A stretch of 49,565 bases of DNA, taken from contig DXFG01000057.1 in the NCBI GenBank assembly GCA_019114545.1, positions 1 to 49,565 of the forward strand, in the 5' to 3' direction. The position numbers were made by a program, and so were the translations under genes. Source of the DNA: Candidatus Blautia pullistercoris. Lineage in GTDB: Bacteria > Bacillota > Clostridia > Lachnospirales > Lachnospiraceae. How positions within the stretch are numbered: the first letter of the stretch is position 1; each line of letters opens with the position of its first letter. This document shows, one piece after another, positions 611 to 26,369 of the stretch. The notes below the pieces were generated by a model that worked only from the letters and a program-made list of their open reading frames with translations, made no database searches and was not told where the DNA came from.

Positions 611-1225
611 ATGAATTTAGAAGAAACTTTATACAGAATCCATCATGAAAAATTATACTACTGTGACAATGAAGATCTGATGAAAGAACAGGGAAAATAC
701 CTGGATATGCTGTTTACCTATAATCAGCTTCCTCCCAGTAAAGGAGAAGAGAAAAAAGCTCTTCTGAAGAAAATGTTCGGCAGGATCGGAGATAACTGTT
801 ATATTGAGACACCTTTTCACGCCAACTGGGGAGGCAAGAACGTATATATGGGAGACCATGTATATGCCAATTTTAACCTGGTGCTGGTGGATGACGCCAG
901 GATAGAGATTGGTGACAATGTGATGATCGGTCCTAACGTGGTGCTGTGTACAGGAACCCATCCAGTGTCCCCCAGACTCCGGGCAAAGGAAGCTCAGTAT
1001 AATAAGCCGGTGAAGGTAGAAAGGGGCGTGTGGCTGGGAGCCAACACCATGGTCATGCCGGGAGTTACTATCGGAGAGAATAGCATTATCGGAGCGGGAA
1101 GCATAGTGACAAAAGATATACCTGCCAATGTGATCGCTTTCGGAAATCCCTGTAAAGTCTATCGGGAGATCACAGAAGAAGACGAGAGATATTATGATAA
1201 GGATAAACTGATCGATATTGAATAG
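611..1225 (+). CDS. Sugar O-acetyltransferase (maltose/galactoside acetyltransferase family)
   Basis: ATG at 611 preceded by AGGAGG; left-handed beta-helix hexapeptide repeats, 'NPCKVYREI' C-terminus. The longer ORF from 455 is probably over-extended. Confidence 0.9.
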   Translation: MNLEETLYRIHHEKLYYCDNEDLMKEQGKYLDMLFTYNQLPPSKGEEKKALLKKMFGRIGDNCYIETPFHANWGGKNVYMGDHVYANFNLVLVDDARIEIGDNVMIGPNVVLCTGTHPVSPRLRAKEAQYNKPVKVERGVWLGANTMVMPGVTIGENSIIGAGSIVTKDIPANVIAFGNPCKVYREITEEDERYYDKDKLIDIE

Positions 1226-1350
1226 ACAGGAAGCGTCAGAAAGGAGAAATAAGGTATGGGTATTTTCGCAGTATTGTAATAGCAAGGTGTATCCTTTGTT
1301 ATTACGCCTTGCTGATCATTAAAAAGATGGAATGATTAGGAGGGTTATGA

Positions 1351-1800
1351 ATGGCATATTTTTATTATCAGTCAAAAAAGATTTTTTATAAGGAAGCCGG
1401 GCGGGGCAAACCCCTTATCATGCTCCATGGAGATACTGCTTCCTCCCGTATGTTTGAGTTTCTCTTACCGCTGTATCGGGAAAACTATCGAGTTATCCTG
1501 TTGGATTTTTTGGGAAACGGGCAATCAGACAGAGTCGACAGGTTTCCAGAAAATCTCTGGATTACCCAGGCTGAACAGGTGATTGCACTTATTGAACATT
1601 TAAAGATTGAGAAAGTAAATCTTTTGGGGACAAGCGGTGGAGCATGGGTTGCTGTGAATACGGCATTGAAACGTCCTGACCTTATAGATAAGGTTATTGC
1701 CGATAGTTTTGACGGAAGAACTTTGAATGAAGATTTAAACGAATTTCAGCAGCTTCCTGGCAAGAAACAGAGCCGGTTTAAACGGAGTACAGCCGTTTGA
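1351..1800 (+). pseudogene. Alpha/beta hydrolase, truncated after the nucleophile elbow
   Basis: 'LLDFLGNGQSDR' and 'LLGTSGGAWVA' are classic alpha/beta hydrolase motifs, but the ORF stops at 149 aa inside a terminator-like hairpin, without the usual C-terminal half carrying the catalytic Asp/His. Confidence 0.65.
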
Positions 1801-1810
1801 CCGGTTTTTG
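1773..1810 (+). terminator. Rho-independent terminator-like hairpin
   Basis: CCGGTTTAAACGG / CCGTTTGACCGG inverted repeat followed by TTTTTG. Confidence 0.6.
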
Positions 1811-1850
1811 TCATATTAACCTAGTTTTAGTTCGAAATATTCAAAAAATT

Positions 1851-1898
1851 TTAGCACTCAGGACTTGACACTGCTGATAACAGGTGTTATATTAACAC
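1851..1898 (+). promoter_or_regulatory. clpB promoter with degenerate CIRCE-like element
   Basis: TTGACA (1865-1870), 17-bp spacer, TATATT (1888-1893). TTAGCACTC (1851-1859) equals the CIRCE left half; 9 nt later CACTGCTGA matches the right half at 6/9. GTGTTA-TAT-TAACAC palindrome spans the -10. Confidence 0.6.
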
Positions 1899-1959
1899 TA
1901 GAACAAGAAAACCAGGCCTGCACAGCAGGCTATTTCATAAGACAATGGAGGGGATTTGT

Positions 1960-4566
1960 ATGAATATCAGTAAATTCACACAGAAATCGCTTCAGGCTGT
2001 TCAGGATTTAGAGAAGACAGCATATGAATTCGGCAACCAGGAGGTTGAACAGGAACACCTGCTCTATAACCTTCTCCATCAGGAGGACAGTCTGATATTG
2101 AAATTGATCGAGAAAATGGAAATCCAGAAAGAACATTTTCTCGACAGGATAGAGCAGGCATTAAATGCCAGAACAAAGGTTTCCGGAGGCCAGCCTTATA
2201 TCGGACAGTATCTGAACAAGGTTCTGGTAACTGCAGAGGATGAGGCAAAGGCTATGGGAGACGAGTATGTCTCCGTTGAGCATTTGTTCCTTGCGCTGCT
2301 GGATCACCCAAGTCCTTCTATGAAGAAGATCTGGCAGGAATATGGGATCACCAAAGAAAGATTTCTTCAGGCACTGAGTACAGTCAGAGGAAATCAGCGG
2401 GTGACTACAGATAATCCTGAGGTGACCTATGATACTCTGAATAAATATGGGGAGGACCTGGTGGAAAAGGCCAGAGAGCAGAAGCTGGATCCTGTAATCG
2501 GCCGTGACAGTGAGATTCGGAATGTGATCCGTATCCTGTCCAGGAAGACCAAGAATAACCCGGTGCTCATCGGCGAGCCTGGAGTAGGTAAGACTGCAGC
2601 TGTTGAGGGGCTGGCTCAGAGGATCGTCCAGGGAGATGTTCCTGAGGGACTGAAGGATAAAAAGATCTTTGCTCTGGATATGGGAGCTCTGGTAGCAGGA
2701 GCCAAATACAGAGGCGAGTTCGAGGAAAGGCTGAAAGCCGTTCTGGAAGAAGTTAAGAAAAGTGAAGGACAGATTATCCTGTTCATTGATGAGCTTCATC
2801 TGATTGTAGGTGCAGGAAAGACCGATGGTGCCATGGATGCAGGAAATATGCTGAAGCCTATGCTGGCAAGAGGAGAGCTTCACTGTATCGGTGCCACTAC
2901 CCTGGATGAGTACCGGAAATATATTGAAAAAGACGCTGCCCTGGAACGTAGGTTCCAGCCGGTTATGGTGGATGAGCCTACAGTGGAAGACACTATTTCC
3001 ATTCTCCGTGGACTGAAGGAACGTTACGAGGTCTTCCATGGGGTAAAGATTACAGACAGCGCCCTGGTGGCTGCGGCTACTCTTTCTGACCGGTATATTT
3101 CCGACAGATTCCTGCCGGATAAGGCTATCGATCTGGTAGATGAAGCCTGCGCCCTGATCAAGACAGAGCTGGATTCCATGCCTACAGAACTGGATGAACT
3201 GCGCCGTAAGATCATGCAGATGGAGATTGAGGAGGCGGCCCTTAAAAAGGAAAATGACCGTCTCAGCCAGGATCGTCTGGTAGAACTTCAGAAAGAAATG
3301 GCAGAACTGAAAGATAAATTCAACAGCCAGAAAGCTCAGTGGGACAATGAAAAAGTAACTGTAGAACATCTCCAGAAACTGAGAGAGCAGATCGAGGATA
3401 TGAACAACCAGATCCAGAAGGCTCAGAGAGAGTATGATCTGAACGAGGCCGCAAGGCTTCAGTACGGGGAACTGCCCAAGCTGCAGAAACAGCTGGAAGC
3501 AGAGGAAGAAAAAGCAAAGAGCCAGGATCTGTCCATGGTTCACCAAAGCGTTACGGAAGATGAGATCGCCAGGATCATTTCCCGGTGGACGGGAATCCCA
3601 GTGGCGAAACTTACGGAAGGCGAGCGAGCCAAGATCCTTCACCTGGAAGAGGAACTTCATAAACGGGTGATCGGACAGGACGAAGGCGTTGCCAAAGTAA
3701 CAGACGCTATTATCCGTTCCAAAGCCGGCATAAAAGATCCTACCAAACCTATCGGCTCCTTCCTGTTCCTTGGACCTACCGGTGTGGGTAAGACGGAACT
3801 GGCTAAAACTCTGGCCGCTACACTTTTTGATGACGAGCAGAATATGGTCCGTATTGATATGAGTGAATATATGGAGAAATATTCAGTGTCCAGACTGATC
3901 GGAGCGCCTCCGGGATATGTAGGATACGAGGAGGGGGGACAGCTTACAGAAGCCGTGAGAAGAAAACCTTACTCAGTAGTTCTTTTTGATGAGATCGAAA
4001 AAGCCCATCCAGATGTGTTCAACGTGCTGCTCCAGGTACTGGACGATGGACGTATCACCGATTCTCAGGGCAGGACGGTAGACTTTAAAAATACCATCCT
4101 GATTATGACTTCCAATATCGGTTCTACCTATCTGCTGGAAGGAATTGAGGATAATGGAGAGATCAAACAGGAAGCCAGGGATCTGGTAGAGAAGGATTTA
4201 AGAGCTCACTTCCGTCCGGAGTTTTTGAACCGGCTGGATGAGATCATCATGTTCAAGCCTCTGACCAAAGAGAACATCAGCGGTATCGTTGACCTGCTCA
4301 TGGCGGATCTGAATAAGAGACTGAGAGATCAGGAGTTGTCTATAGAATTGACAAAAGACGCAAAAGATTATATTATTGAAGGCGGATATGATCCCGTTTA
4401 CGGAGCACGTCCTCTGAAGAGATTTGTGCAGAAGAATGTAGAGACGCTCACTGCAAGACTGATCCTTTCCGGTGATGTAAGAGCAGATGACAGGATCATC
4501 ATAGACCTGGAGAACGGCCAGCTCACAGCCCATGCGGTGTCTGTTCAGGATACTGCAGCAAGCTGA
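1960..4566 (+). CDS. clpB: ATP-dependent chaperone ClpB
   Basis: Two AAA+ modules ([16 protein letters not shown]), ClpN domain, middle coiled coil. ATG at 1960 ([18 protein letters not shown]) looks more natural than 1945. Confidence 0.96.
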
Positions 4567-19421: not shown

Positions 19422-20105
19422 ATGAGCAGAATATTAGTGATAGAAGATGACCAGCTTTTAAATGGAGGACTTTGTTTTAATCTTCAAAATGCAGGATATG
19501 AGACCATACCTGTATATAATCTGGAAAATGCCTATCCTATGGTAAAATCCCAGAAATTTGACCTTATGCTGCTGGACGTAAATCTTCCCGACGGCAATGG
19601 ATTTGATTTTGCCAGAGAGATACGGGGATTTAATCAGAAGCCTTTAATCTTTCTTACCGCTCATGAACTGGATGAGGAAGTGATGGAAGGATTTGCGCTG
19701 GGAGCGGATGACTATATTACAAAACCTTTTAATGTGCAGATTGCTATGCAGAGGGTCCAGGCGGTTTTGAGGCGGACAATGGGAAAGAAAGAGGAGCATC
19801 TTTACCGGTGCGGGAATCTGGTGATCGATTTTGAGACCAGAACTGTAATAAAATCAGGGGAAAAGCTGTCTCTGACACCTACGGAATTTAAACTTCTCTA
19901 TGTATTTGTCAAGAATGAGAATATGGCTCTTACCAGGAACCTTCTTTTGGAAAAACTCTGGGACAGTGAAGGAAACTTTGTGGACGAGCATACTCTGACT
20001 ATCAATATCAGCCGTCTGAGAGCCAAAATCAAAGACGCCCAATATAAATACATAAAAACACTTTACGGTATGGGATATCAGTGGATAGGAGCGCAGAATG
20101 AATAG
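19422..20105 (+). CDS. OmpR-family response regulator
   Basis: Receiver (MSRILVIEDDQLL, LMLLDVNLPDGNG, ITKPFN) plus winged helix. Confidence 0.92.
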   Translation: MSRILVIEDDQLLNGGLCFNLQNAGYETIPVYNLENAYPMVKSQKFDLMLLDVNLPDGNGFDFAREIRGFNQKPLIFLTAHELDEEVMEGFALGADDYITKPFNVQIAMQRVQAVLRRTMGKKEEHLYRCGNLVIDFETRTVIKSGEKLSLTPTEFKLLYVFVKNENMALTRNLLLEKLWDSEGNFVDEHTLTINISRLRAKIKDAQYKYIKTLYGMGYQWIGAQNE

Positions 20106-21126
20106 AAAAATAAGTGCAGATACGTTTGTCATGGCAGCGGCTATAGGAGCTTGTGTTCTGTTTCTGGTTGCTACGGCATGTTTTGGAGAAAGAAACTTTT
20201 TTACCTTTCTGTGTTACGGTTTCGGAGTGCTGATGATCCTGATGATTCTGGCAGTGTACGGGATCTTCCGGAAGGCTTTTCTCAAATTCTCAGATAAGGT
20301 ATGCAGACAGGTGGAAGAGCTTACGAAGGGAAATTTCCAGGATCCCGGGCCGGAGGAGGACACCCTTACTTCTAAGATTGAAATGAAGCTGGATAAGCTG
20401 TCCGATGTGATCCATTCTTCTTTAAGTACCCAGGAATTTCAGAAACAGGAGGTCCAGCAGATGGTATCGGATATCTCTCACCAGTTGAAAACCCCCATTG
20501 CCAATATCACCATGTACAGTTCTATGCTGGATTCGGGAAATTTTTCCATTGAGCAGAGAAGGCAGTTTGCCCAGGTCATTGAAAATCAGGTAAAAAAACT
20601 GGAATTCCTAGTGGATTCACTGATGAAAATGTCTCGCCTGGAAACTTCTCTGATTCATCTGGAAGTAAAACCTGCCAGGATCTTTGATACGCTTTTCCAG
20701 GCCCTGTCTCAGGTTGGCGCAAAGGCGGAATTCAAAGAGATCCAGCTGTCATGCAGCTGTGACGAGGACCTGGTGGTTTCCCACGACCCCAAATGGACCC
20801 AGGAAGCGCTGTTTAATATCCTGGATAATGCAGTGAAATATACCCCTGAAGGCGGCAGGATAACAGTGAACACAGAGGTATGGGAGATGTTCACCAAGAT
20901 TGATATTTCCGATACAGGAATCGGCATTGCCAGGGAACATTACGAGGACATTTTCAAACGGTTTTACCGGGAAGGAAAGGTACACCTGGAAGAAGGAGTG
21001 GGTATCGGATTGTACTTAAGCCGGCAGATTATCACCCGCCAGGGAGGTTATATAAGAGTTTCCTCAAAAGAGGGAGAAGGAACCACCTTTTCTGTATTTC
21101 TGCCTAATTTACACGAAAGAAAGTAA
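20098..21126 (+). CDS. Sensor histidine kinase
   Basis: Two TM helices, HAMP-like linker, 'DISHQLKTPIANI' H-box, HATPase_c motifs. Confidence 0.92.
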   Translation: MNRKISADTFVMAAAIGACVLFLVATACFGERNFFTFLCYGFGVLMILMILAVYGIFRKAFLKFSDKVCRQVEELTKGNFQDPGPEEDTLTSKIEMKLDKLSDVIHSSLSTQEFQKQEVQQMVSDISHQLKTPIANITMYSSMLDSGNFSIEQRRQFAQVIENQVKKLEFLVDSLMKMSRLETSLIHLEVKPARIFDTLFQALSQVGAKAEFKEIQLSCSCDEDLVVSHDPKWTQEALFNILDNAVKYTPEGGRITVNTEVWEMFTKIDISDTGIGIAREHYEDIFKRFYREGKVHLEEGVGIGLYLSRQIITRQGGYIRVSSKEGEGTTFSVFLPNLHERK

Positions 21127-21151
21127 AAGATTATGATATAAAATAAAAATG

Positions 21152-21188
21152 GCGCCTCATCACTGTCTTCGGACATTGAATGAGGCGC
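21152..21188. terminator. Bidirectional terminator-like hairpin between convergent kinase and permease genes
   Basis: GCGCCTCAT ... ATGAGGCGC with flanking A-rich/T-rich tracts. Confidence 0.65.
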
Positions 21189-21291
21189 TGTTTTGTTTAG
21201 CAGGATGTGTACTTGTGCAAAGTGGAAATTTGTCGCAAAAGTGACGGCCCTCGGCGTAAGAACTCAGCAGGAGAAACTTTTTCTTCGGGAG

Positions 21292-23667
21292 TTATTCGTC
21301 TCTTTTCAACCGTTCCATTAAGCCGGCTTTTGTGAAATGCCGGTAGCATACAAGGGTGATCCCCATGGGAACTGCCAGTACAAAAAGGCTCCATAAAAGT
21401 AGGGGCACCAAAGGCAGATGATAGGGCAGGACAGAAGGTGAGGAGAGGAAAAGGAACCGGTAAAGGAGAAAATTTATCCCCACACCCAGAACCCAGGAAA
21501 TGACCAAAGGCATCCGGCACATATACAGGCATTCGTAAAGAAGCATTTTTTTAATTTCTTTTCTGGTCATTCCTACTGCCTCAAAAAGCGCCAGCTCCCG
21601 GTTCTGGGTAACCATTTTGTTCAGCGTAGAGTTTAATAGATTCAGAACGCTGAAGATGATCACGATAAGGGTTGCTCCGGCAAAGAGGAGGAGAAGGAGA
21701 CGATTCTGTCTGGCCAGCTCCTGATGGTAATCTTCGTAGGAATCCATAAGGATCAGGGGACAATCCCTGGAAAACTCTTTCAGATACTGCTCCAGTTCGG
21801 GAGAAGCTATATGATTTTTGGTAGTGATATATACCATACTGACTGTATTGACATCCGGATACATCTTTTCAAATACAGAGACAGGCACCAGAAAACTGGT
21901 ATTCAAAGGCACATAGTCTTCTGAGAATTTCGGGTCAATGGTTCCTGCTACAGGAAGTGAAATGTTCTCATAACCGCTGCCATTGTAATAATTCAGAGAA
22001 ATGCTGCCTTTCTGAAAATAATCAGTTCCATAGTAATAGATGGGATTGTAGAGTACACTTTCCTTTTCCTCCAGTTCATCATAGGTAAGACTGCTGTCTG
22101 ACAGATAAGGCTTCATAAGAGAAAATATTTTTTCGTCAAATGCGATCAGATTTGTGGATTCAGAACCCTGATCTGTGAGAACATTTACAAATTCTTCATG
22201 AAGGGGAAAAACTTTTTCTACATCCGAAAAGGTCCCCAGTTTTTCCAAAAATTCCTGGCTGAAAATATTCTGCTCCTGATATTCTATCAGTTCTGTATCG
22301 GAAGAATTCAGGTATTCAGAGTTAAAAGAAAGAATATAATCTGCTTCCTGAAAATACCCGGAACGTACTCTGAGGTCAATGTTCCAAAAACTTATATAAG
22401 CAGCGGTAAGTAGAAAGAAAATACCTCCTGTTACCATGGAAAGCCGGGTAAAAAACATTTTCTTCCGGTTTTTTTTCGCTCGCATCTTGCCCAGGGAGCG
22501 GCAGGAAATCCTGCCGGAAAAGGAAAAATCAGAGTTTTCCTGCCAGATCAGAGCCTTCCAGGGTGTAATCCTGGAAGCGACTTTTGCCGGCTTTTGGAGA
22601 AAAGCCATGAGGAAAATATAGGAACAGAAAAACACGATCAGTCCAATGCCGGCCATATAAGGCAGACTCCATTGACCTGTTACAGCACCGGCCAGGAGCA
22701 GACCTGGAAGGATTCCTGTCGTACTGCCCAGCAGACACAGCATAGAACTTTCCAGATTTACCATCCGCCGGATCTGTCCGGCAGTCATTCCCAGGGTCTG
22801 CATCTGTCCGAAAGCCTGTATCCTGGACATGATAGAGATATAGAAAATGCTGTAGATCACCAGCAGTCCGATGACCATCACCAGCAGGTCCAGGAAAAAA
22901 TAAACCAAGATCACAGAAGGAGTAAGAGGATTGGTATCAATGCTGTAGTAATTGGGGGATGTCTGGCTGTCTGAAATCCCGCATTCTTCGCCGATCCGAG
23001 CCAGGAGAGCAGAGGATTTTTCCAAACCACCGGAAAGAAATTCCTGTTTCAGCCAGACTTTCAGGCTGAAATCTTTACCTGTAAATAAGGGACTGGTTTC
23101 AGCAAAAAGGCCAGATACATAAAAGTTTGGAATACTGGTTCCTGAGGCTGCTTTTGCAATGCCGCAGACCTGAAGTCTCAGGGACCTGCCGCTGCTTTGG
23201 AAAGTATAGACCTTTCCCAAAGCAGCATGGAGTTTTTTTGCCAGAGTGCTGTCAAGGAGGATATCATCTGCGCCTTTGGGCAGGCTTCCCTCTATCAGTT
23301 CGCAGCCCGGGAAACTGCCCTCCGGAGATTTCTGATATACGGGTCTGGCATATTCCCCCTCCAGCTGTCCCAGATCTCCGTATTTTTCCAGAAAGACCTT
23401 TTCAAAATGGGAGTCCTGGGATAAGGCGGAGATTTCCTCCTGTGTCAGGGACGTATAGACGGCATGCTCTTCACCTGCGAAATCTTCATAGGCAGTCAGA
23501 TAATCCAGGGTATTGACACAGGGCAGGAATGTCATGACAAAGGTACAGGTGCAGATTGTAAATAAGATACAAAAGGTACGGAACCGGTTGGTCTTTAATG
23601 ATTTGAACACCAGTTTCCAGGCAGGTTTTCGGTTATTATTGGTAATTAAAGACATGGCTCTCCCCAC
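21292..23667 (-). CDS. FtsX-like ABC transporter permease (791 aa)
   Basis: FtsX domains, e.g. 'QNRELALFEAVGMTRKEIKKMLLYE'; overlaps its ATPase gene. Confidence 0.9.
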   Translation of the reverse strand: MGRAMSLITNNNRKPAWKLVFKSLKTNRFRTFCILFTICTCTFVMTFLPCVNTLDYLTAYEDFAGEEHAVYTSLTQEEISALSQDSHFEKVFLEKYGDLGQLEGEYARPVYQKSPEGSFPGCELIEGSLPKGADDILLDSTLAKKLHAALGKVYTFQSSGRSLRLQVCGIAKAASGTSIPNFYVSGLFAETSPLFTGKDFSLKVWLKQEFLSGGLEKSSALLARIGEECGISDSQTSPNYYSIDTNPLTPSVILVYFFLDLLVMVIGLLVIYSIFYISIMSRIQAFGQMQTLGMTAGQIRRMVNLESSMLCLLGSTTGILPGLLLAGAVTGQWSLPYMAGIGLIVFFCSYIFLMAFLQKPAKVASRITPWKALIWQENSDFSFSGRISCRSLGKMRAKKNRKKMFFTRLSMVTGGIFFLLTAAYISFWNIDLRVRSGYFQEADYILSFNSEYLNSSDTELIEYQEQNIFSQEFLEKLGTFSDVEKVFPLHEEFVNVLTDQGSESTNLIAFDEKIFSLMKPYLSDSSLTYDELEEKESVLYNPIYYYGTDYFQKGSISLNYYNGSGYENISLPVAGTIDPKFSEDYVPLNTSFLVPVSVFEKMYPDVNTVSMVYITTKNHIASPELEQYLKEFSRDCPLILMDSYEDYHQELARQNRLLLLLFAGATLIVIIFSVLNLLNSTLNKMVTQNRELALFEAVGMTRKEIKKMLLYECLYMCRMPLVISWVLGVGINFLLYRFLFLSSPSVLPYHLPLVPLLLWSLFVLAVPMGITLVCYRHFTKAGLMERLKRDE

Positions 23668-24365
23668 TTTCTCCCGACAATATGGCCGTCTTCGATATGA
23701 ATGATACGGTCTGCCATCTGAGCAATTTCATCATTGTGAGTAATCATTACAATGGTTTGATGAAAACGCATACTGGAAGACTTCAGAAGGCCTACCACTT
23801 CCAGACTGGTACGGGAATCCAGGTTTCCGGTAGGCTCGTCGCACAAAAGGATAGAGGGTTTTACCGCCAGAGCCCTGGCAATGGCAACCCGTTGCTGCTG
23901 GCCGCCGGAAAGCTGGGTCACATTCCGCTCCAGCTTATCCTGAATACCAAGCCAGCAGGTAATCTCCTGGATAAATTCTTTATCCGGCTGGTTCCCATCG
24001 ATCTCAATGGGGAAAATAATATTTTCATATACATTCAGCATGGGGATCAGATTATAATTCTGAAAAACAATGCCGATATTTCTTCTGCGGTAAATAGAGG
24101 CCTGTTCTGGAGAAAGCTTTGACAGATCTCTTCCTGCTACAAGGACCTGCCCGCTGTCCGGGGTGTCCAGCCCGCCCATCATATGGAGAAGGGTGGATTT
24201 CCCGCTTCCACTTGCCCCTACAATAGCAGTAAAAGTTCCCTCTTCAATAGTCAAAGAAATATGGTCCAGGGCTTTTACCAGAGAAAAGTCTTTTCCATAA
24301 GATTTACACAAATCTTTTATTTCTATAATCGTTCCCTTATTCATCAGAACCTCCTTTAAAGCCAT
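23646..24365 (-). CDS. ABC transporter ATP-binding protein (MacB/LolD-type)
   Basis: [37 protein letters not shown]. Confidence 0.93.
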
Positions 24366-24567: not shown

Positions 24568-24750
24568 ATGAAAAAGATCGTAACAAAAACAGCCGCTGCT
24601 TTATCAGGAATACTTATGCTTTTCGCCGCCGTAAGCGCAGGTCCCGGACTGGCAGCGGCGATGGCGGATCTGATGGGATATATGATATATTTAAGCGTGT
24701 TTGCAGCGCCGGTATGGTATTTTTCAAAGAAAACTAAATGTAACTATTGA
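24568..24750 (+). CDS. Small membrane protein (60 aa)
   Basis: RBS AGAGGAGTGAGAGATC before ATG; two hydrophobic segments: MKKIVTKTAAALSGILMLFAAVSAGPGLAAAMADLMGYMIYLSVFAAPVWYFSKKTKCNY. Confidence 0.6.
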   Translation: MKKIVTKTAAALSGILMLFAAVSAGPGLAAAMADLMGYMIYLSVFAAPVWYFSKKTKCNY

Positions 24751-24775
24751 CATTACAACAAAAAGATGTTATCTT
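24737..24775 (+). promoter_or_regulatory. Palindrome-overlapped promoter of PNPOx gene
   Basis: AATGTAACTATTGACATTACAAC (24737-24759); TTGACA (24747-24752) - 17 bp - TATCTT (24770-24775). Confidence 0.7.
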
Positions 24776-24825
24776 AATGCTGGAAGATGAAATGATAATT
24801 GTTACAACGAAAAGGAGAATCTAGT

Positions 24826-25221
24826 ATGAGCAAAGTGGTAGAATTTTTACAGGCAAATCCGGTGCAGTATCTGGCAACAGTAGGAAGGGATAACAAGGCG
24901 AAAGTAAGACCCTTTATGTTTCTTTTTGAGCAGGACGGAAAGCTCTGGTTCTGCACCAATAACACAAAAGATGTGTATAAGGATATGCAGGTAAACCCTG
25001 AAATCGAAGTATGTGTATCTGATCCTACTTATGCATGGATCCGCATTCATGGAACCGCAGTTTTTGAAAATAACATGGCTGTAAAAGAAGGGGCAATGCA
25101 TAATCCTATCGTAAAAAGCCAGTATGAAACGGCAGATAACCCCATCTTTGAAGTATTCTATATAAAGGAGGCTCACGGGGTGATTGCAGATTTCTCCGGA
25201 AATCCCCCTTACGAATTCTAA
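24826..25221 (+). CDS. Pyridoxamine 5'-phosphate oxidase (PNPOx-like) family protein
   Basis: MSKVVEFLQANPVQYLATVGRDNKAKVRPFMFLFEQDGKLWFCTNNTKDVYKDM split-barrel motif; AAAGGAG RBS before ATG at 24826. Confidence 0.9.
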   Translation: MSKVVEFLQANPVQYLATVGRDNKAKVRPFMFLFEQDGKLWFCTNNTKDVYKDMQVNPEIEVCVSDPTYAWIRIHGTAVFENNMAVKEGAMHNPIVKSQYETADNPIFEVFYIKEAHGVIADFSGNPPYEF

Positions 25222-25222
25222 T

Positions 25223-25855
25223 ATGAAGACTAAAGATTACCTGAGGATTCTGAAGGATGAGATTCATTCTACAGTAATCGCTACCATTGACGAAAAAGGC
25301 AGACCGGTTACCCGGGTGATCGATATTATGCTGACAGATGAGAACAGCCTGTATTTCATTACAGCAAAAGGAAAAGCATTTTATTCTCAGTTAATGACAG
25401 ATCCTTATGTGGCCATCAGCGGCATGTGCGGCGGAGAGGGGACCATGAAGAAGAAAGCGGTTTCTATCCGGGGAAAGGCAGTGAAGATCGGCTCTGAAAA
25501 ACTGAAAGAGGTTTTCAGGCAGAATCCATACATGGCAGAAATCTATCCCCAGGAAGAGAGCCGGAGGGCTCTGGAAGTGTTTCAGGTAGCAGAGGGAACC
25601 GGAGAATTTTTTGACTTGTCGGTAAAGCCCATTTATCGGGATACCTTTGTTCTTGGGGCGGGGCAGCAGGAGACAGAGGAGCCGGGAGGATATTTTATCA
25701 CGGACCGCTGTCACGGCTGCCGTATCTGTTATTCCAAGTGTCCCCAAAAATGTATCGATATGTCGGCCAAGCCTTTCGTTATTCAGCAGGAGCACTGCCT
25801 CCACTGTGGAAACTGTATGGAGGCCTGTCCCTTTGACGCAGTAGAGAAAAGATAG
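25223..25855 (+). CDS. PNPOx-like domain fused to C-terminal 2x[4Fe-4S] ferredoxin
   Basis: N-terminal split barrel; C-terminal CHGCRICYSKCPQKC and CLHCGNCMEACP. ATG at 25223 two bases after the previous stop. Confidence 0.9.
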   Translation: MKTKDYLRILKDEIHSTVIATIDEKGRPVTRVIDIMLTDENSLYFITAKGKAFYSQLMTDPYVAISGMCGGEGTMKKKAVSIRGKAVKIGSEKLKEVFRQNPYMAEIYPQEESRRALEVFQVAEGTGEFFDLSVKPIYRDTFVLGAGQQETEEPGGYFITDRCHGCRICYSKCPQKCIDMSAKPFVIQQEHCLHCGNCMEACPFDAVEKR

Positions 25856-25865
25856 GATATCAAAG

Positions 25866-25904
25866 AATGTAATGATTGACATTACAACCTGCTTCGGGTA
25901 AAAT
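25866..25904 (+). promoter_or_regulatory. Palindrome-overlapped promoter of Rrf2 gene
   Basis: AATGTAATGATTGACATTACAAC (25866-25888) with TGTAATG-N5-CATTACA; TTGACA (25876-25881) - 17 bp - TAAAAT (25899-25904). Confidence 0.75.
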
Positions 25905-25928: not shown

Positions 25929-26369
25929 ATGCAGATTTCAAGCAGATTTACCATTGCCATACATATGTTGACCTGTATGGAGACATTTAAAGAAGAATAT
26001 AAGATAACCAGTGATTTTCTGGCGTCCAGTATCAATGTAAATCCGGTCATTATCCGACGGATCCTGTCTCAGCTGAAAGAAGCAGGACTTATTGAGGTGA
26101 AGCGGGGAACCGGCGGCGCTGGGACCATAAAACCTCTGGAAGAGATCACATTTTTAGACGTATATCGTGCTGTGGAATGTATTGAGGAGAATACCTTGTT
26201 CCATTTCCATGAAAATCCCAATCCGGCCTGTCCGGTTGGAAGAAACATCCATAATATCCTGGATGATAAGCTTCTTAAAGTGCAGGAGGCCATGGAGCGG
26301 GAGCTGAAATCCATTACTCTGGCAGATGTGATCAGAGATCTGGAAAATGTTCTTGGAAATGAAGCGTAG
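25929..26369 (+). CDS. Rrf2-family transcriptional regulator
   Basis: MQISSRFTIAIHMLTCM...TSDFLASSINVNPVIIRRILSQLKEAGLIEVKRGTGG Rrf2 HTH and wing. Confidence 0.92.
   Translation: MQISSRFTIAIHMLTCMETFKEEYKITSDFLASSINVNPVIIRRILSQLKEAGLIEVKRGTGGAGTIKPLEEITFLDVYRAVECIEENTLFHFHENPNPACPVGRNIHNILDDKLLKVQEAMERELKSITLADVIRDLENVLGNEA

Follow-up and report, generated by a model that had tools for sequence, protein, structure and literature searches.

We analysed a 49,565-nucleotide stretch of DNA from Candidatus Blautia pullistercoris (hereafter the window), in which three adjacent genes on the plus strand encode a 131-aa PNPOx-fold protein (24826–25221; Pfam PF01243), a 210-aa fusion of PNPOx and ferredoxin domains (25223–25855; Pfam PF01243 and Fer4) and a 146-aa Rrf2-family regulator (25929–26369; Pfam PF02082, 115.2 bits against a cut-off of 30). 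Positions 19422–24365, just upstream of the PNPOx locus, hold what looks like a module of the antimicrobial-peptide type; its genes, named by eye from their translations, encode a response regulator, a histidine kinase and an ABC transporter whose permease is large.

The initial annotation had described two near-identical palindromes over the promoters of the PNPOx and Rrf2 genes, and its account of the letters proved accurate. The 23-mers at 24737–24759 and 25866–25888 differ at 2 of 23 positions (21/23 identity); TTGACA, the −35 element, lies inside each (24747–24752 and 25876–25881, plus strand), and spacers of 17 bp lead to the −10 elements TATCTT (24770–24775) and TAAAAT (25899–25904). 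The second palindrome is a perfect TGTAATG-N5-CATTACA, and the cores of both are TGTAA-N9-TTACA. We therefore refer to two predicted operators over the −35 elements, O1 of the PNPOx promoter (TGTAACTATTGACATTACA, 24739–24757, plus strand) and the lone operator of the Rrf2 promoter (TGTAATGATTGACATTACA, 25868–25886, plus strand). While the palindrome over the PNPOx −35 element stood, the view that this promoter has only one operator did not: a second predicted operator, O2 (TGAAATGATAATTGTTACA, 24788–24806, plus strand), a degenerate copy matching TGTAA-N9-TTACA at 9 of 10 positions, had been overlooked. O2 lies 49 bp after O1, just past the inferred transcription start, spanning roughly +6 to +24 of the predicted PNPOx transcript. 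An open reading frame of 60 aa (24568–24750, plus strand), whose ribosome-binding site is good and whose N-terminus is hydrophobic, ends within O1; it had no match in Pfam or NCBIfam. Taken by itself, the window is weak evidence for operators, as a scan of it with three mismatches allowed gave 5 matches versus 1.96 expected, and such matches may arise by chance once mismatches are allowed.

The whole 3.1-Mb genome contains three exact TGTAANNATTGACATTACA sites and no match to the reversed control pattern, although sites could be missing from this draft assembly (349 contigs, 89% complete, 5% contaminated). Allowing two mismatches gave about 100 matches in the genome, with roughly half as many for the reversed control, and therefore only matches with zero or one mismatch were used. 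Among 150 genomes of the family, 20 contained TGTAANNNTTGACATTACA, compared with one match for the reversed control. To avoid selecting by motif, the upstream regions of Rrf2 orthologues were picked by protein similarity. A dyad matching at 9–10 of 10 positions was present in 20 of 28 upstream regions of up to 150 bp from an even draw of family genomes (about none in dinucleotide shuffles), and in 49 of 79 upstream regions of the named set, versus 0.3 expected from dinucleotide shuffles. A de novo search for dyads upstream of the orthologues, covering all 5-base half-sites and spacers of 0–20, ranked TGTAA with a spacer of 9 top in the even draw of Lachnospiraceae (21 of 29) and also in the named set (49 of 80). 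Conservation of the palindromes in relatives, named in the initial annotation as a test that could overturn the sites, came out in their favour.

The dyad also follows the regulator from genome to genome. With orthology defined by our own cut of E below 1e-37, 29 of the 150 family genomes encode an Rrf2 orthologue; the exact motif was found in 15 of these 29 versus 5 of the other 121 (Fisher p=4e-9, a value made optimistic by kinship among the genomes), and most of the 14 orthologue genomes that lack the exact motif retain a 9–10/10 dyad. In a class-wide draw, six genomes outside the family carried the motif, beside the Rrf2 gene in five and before a Zn-Macro/SirTM operon in one. It weighs against control by this regulator that PNPOx and Zn-Macro genes are also present in genomes without the window-type Rrf2. 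By automatic count, PNPOx promoters had the dyad in 4 of 5 Rrf2-positive genomes versus 1 of 10 negative ones; the fifth positive genome (G122) has a truncated PNPOx match with two dyads upstream on inspection, and the single negative genome with a dyad is a fragmented assembly. For macrodomain genes, 250 bp of upstream sequence was too narrow, the gene often lying inside an operon, and 1.5 kb was added; within this distance, a perfect dyad preceded Zn-Macro in 9 of 14 Rrf2-positive versus 0 of 16 negative genomes (30 best Zn-Macro loci). These results confirm that the palindromes are real and conserved.

Another regulator might bind the dyads, for example a second Rrf2 protein (62 bits; 967–1485, minus strand, of L133, contig C100 of G000) whose gene is divergent from a sirtuin-family gene (1533–2516, plus strand), and five motif-bearing genomes have no detected orthologue of the window Rrf2. 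In most orthologues, however, the window-type Rrf2 gene has the dyad immediately ahead of it, and the dyad tracks that gene; we regard a different regulator as very improbable. The C100 protein is a distant Rrf2 with the loop HLDTHTNPECGVG; a weak dyad, TGTTAGAATAAAAATTACA, lies between its gene and the sirtuin-family gene, and the two are possibly a paralogous Rrf2–sirtuin pair.

We aligned every promoter whose −35 element is covered by a dyad and surveyed the set for a second copy. In 52 of 62 target promoters a second dyad starts 42–43 or 46–49 bp downstream of the first, while none of 53 Rrf2 promoters has one at these distances. Every one of the 9 PNPOx promoters had twin dyads, and so did each of the 14 SirTM promoters and each of the 14 YwnB-like promoters found to bear the operator; among the macrodomain entries without a second dyad, at least three are second operators themselves, counted again. 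The spacings in relatives fall into the two groups 42–43 and 46–49 bp, with main peaks at 42 and 49 that lie roughly two-thirds of a turn of the helix apart. This difference between twin and single operators suggests that the targets may be repressed more tightly than the regulator. The survey also bears on a trivial explanation of the likeness between the palindromes, namely that strong promoters share the −35 TTGACA, which indeed lies within both, or that one promoter was recently duplicated. The second operators mostly lack TTGACA yet retain the dyad, the outer half-sites are kept across genera, and shuffles fail to reproduce the dyad, which leaves this explanation a next to negligible probability.

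The initial annotation had presented the locus as a self-contained mini-regulon, a view that cannot be maintained. The third exact site of the genome (contig C191, position 4474) precedes a gene for a zinc-macrodomain protein, which matches the protein-ADP-ribose hydrolase model NF003163 (307.8 bits against a cut-off of 272) and has the solved Zn-Macro 8RSI as its closest PDB match. Another genome of the genus, G359, repeats this three-site layout. We found no SirTM adjoining the C191 macrodomain gene, the three sirtuins of the genome being on other contigs, and no YwnB-like gene after any of its three exact sites. Many relatives, however, encode SirTM beside Zn-Macro under the same operator. 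When clustered, the genes downstream of the operator in relatives group as Rrf2, Zn-Macro, a SirTM-type sirtuin (best PDB match 5A3A, E=3.8e-73), a YwnB-like NAD(P)H-binding oxidoreductase, PNPOx-ferredoxin, PNPOx, SnoaL-like and flavin reductase-like proteins, and a RiPP with ACGX repeats plus its radical SAM enzyme; the genes of these runs are simple longest-ORF picks, and co-transcription of every one is not implied. The operator also precedes feoA-feoB in three congeners and a cupin-like gene in two genomes outside the family (FeoAB and cupin both named by eye). At feoA-feoB of these congeners (L220, L226 and L229), twin operators lie 47 bp apart (TGTAATTCTTGACATTACA and TGTAAATCTATATATTACA), an echo of the iron link of SifR. 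At L083:5506, L086:4955 and L093:3985, genes for an ACGX-repeat peptide (TIGR04341) and a radical SAM maturase (TIGR04340) stand directly behind the operator, and the RiPP may be under electrophile control.

We compared the regulator with known Rrf2 proteins. Its closest named relatives are from Candidatus Blautia species, and its fold is already settled by sequence similarity to 1YLF (E=5.7e-43) and Bacillus subtilis YwnA (1XD7; E=6.4e-31), the closest solved structures, with the remaining Rrf2 structures in the PDB far behind. The window protein has the loop H94-E-N-P-N-P-A-C101, matching HxxPNPxC, and YwnA and 1YLF have the same loop (HENPNPKCPVG and HEQPNPDCPIG, respectively). C101 is the only widely conserved cysteine, kept by 95 of 95 near relatives and likewise by the wider orthologues inspected. 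Although common within the near clade, C16 and C84 are missing from many wider orthologues that retain the operator; a C16–C84 disulfide, attractive in the near clade, accordingly failed in wider sampling. Position 33, which corresponds to the second cysteine of HypR, is Ser in the window protein and Cys in none of the orthologues inspected. Because of the HENPNPAC loop, the invariant C101, the loss of C16 and C84 and the absence of Cys at position 33, the protein is placed by its sequence in the SifR/YwnA class.

SifR of Streptococcus pneumoniae belongs to the Rrf2 class with the HxxPNPxC loop and a TGTAA-N9-TTACA operator; a quinone adduct on its C102 dissociates it from DNA, and ywnB is among its targets (PMC9218516). 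The window system thus shares with SifR the fold, the loop and the operator, and its relatives also share the YwnB-like target and, through feoAB in congeners, the link to iron uptake. In contrast, PNPOx-ferredoxin, SirTM and Zn-Macro are not among SifR targets, and 'ADP-ribos', 'sirtuin' and 'PNPOx' are absent from the text of that paper, in which the function of YwnA is reported as unknown, with no regulon described. The initial annotation had proposed that both promoters are controlled by an Rrf2 repressor that regulates itself, and this proposal gains from our analysis, since the dyad tracks the orthologue and equals the published operator of the closest characterised class.

The likeness to HypR of Staphylococcus aureus requires consideration, as a sensor of this type would respond to hypochlorite-like oxidants through a Cys–Cys disulfide switch. 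HypR binds the same TGTAA-N9-TTACA core (PMC9218516) and provides the top NCBIfam model for the window Rrf2 (NF041852), and C16 and C84, common in the near clade, would permit a dithiol mechanism. The score of 60.3 bits, however, is far under the cut-off of 180, HypR uses C33 and C99, and C16 and C84 are dispensed with in many orthologues that keep the operator; a HypR-type switch is therefore unlikely. The Rrf2 family also includes Fe-S, NO or iron sensors of the IscR, NsrR and RirA type, which could act at the same sites, and both the PNPOx-ferredoxin target and the operator before feoAB in some congeners would suit such a sensor. We, however, found no three-cysteine cluster-binding arrangement in the C-terminal region of the window Rrf2, where C101 stands alone, and the top matches are 1YLF and YwnA rather than Fe-S members, which makes this kind of sensor quite improbable. 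Of the ligands suggested in the initial annotation, an electrophile is thus favoured and Fe-S status disfavoured. The window Rrf2 is most likely an autoregulated thiol-type sensor of electrophiles or quinones rather than an Fe-S sensor; that it would sense them via C101 we infer from its membership of the SifR/YwnA class.

The operators, their twin layout, their co-occurrence with the regulator and the class features are computational observations, and we consider it probable that they reflect the following mechanism. A dimer of the SifR/YwnA-class repressor would bind TGTAA-N9-TTACA. At its own promoter, the one operator over the −35 element would provide negative autoregulation; at the promoters of PNPOx/PNPOx-ferredoxin and of the unlinked zinc-macrodomain gene, the −35 operator paired with one after the inferred transcription start would form a twin-operator block. 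An electrophile or quinone that modified C101 (in the HENPNPAC loop), or oxidation of this residue, would release the protein and induce flavin/Fe-S redox enzymes along with an enzyme that reverses ADP-ribosylation. In this scheme we infer binding, repression, the inducer and the roles of the enzymes.

The regulator class and the operator are already known. In the open-licence literature we found no prior description of SirTM/Zn-Macro, PNPOx or PNPOx-ferredoxin as targets or of the twin-operator design, though one may exist elsewhere; a search of open-licence papers for Rrf2 with a macrodomain or sirtuin, or for a Lachnospiraceae regulon, likewise gave no earlier account. Known SirTM/Zn-Macro operons (PMC4518038, PMC11490716) resemble the present system in having a Zn-Macro-type hydrolase, here the third target, with SirTM beside it in relatives. 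Those papers, however, name no Rrf2 regulator, whereas the loci described here have PNPOx, PNPOx-ferredoxin and Rrf2 neighbours, with no GcvH-like or LplA gene noticed alongside in an unsystematic look.

The two palindromes of the window are thus predicted to belong to a wider conserved set of operators that serves a single stress-sensing repressor. This repressor appears to govern flavin-type enzymes along with a system of protein ADP-ribosylation that is still poorly understood. The conserved operator connects these genes with a class of regulators whose chemical trigger is known, making quinones and other electrophiles directly testable inducers, and it names PNPOx, PNPOx-ferredoxin and YwnB-like proteins as candidate co-induced partners. 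The twin-operator signature offers a simple guide to more members in gut anaerobes. We lean, with some reserve, towards the view that a SifR-like electrophile sensor has SirTM/Zn-Macro protein ADP-ribosylation among its outputs in Lachnospiraceae and related Clostridia, inducing it alongside PNPOx-type flavoproteins via conserved twin operators. If so, ADP-ribosylation would be one arm of an anaerobe's response to reactive electrophiles.
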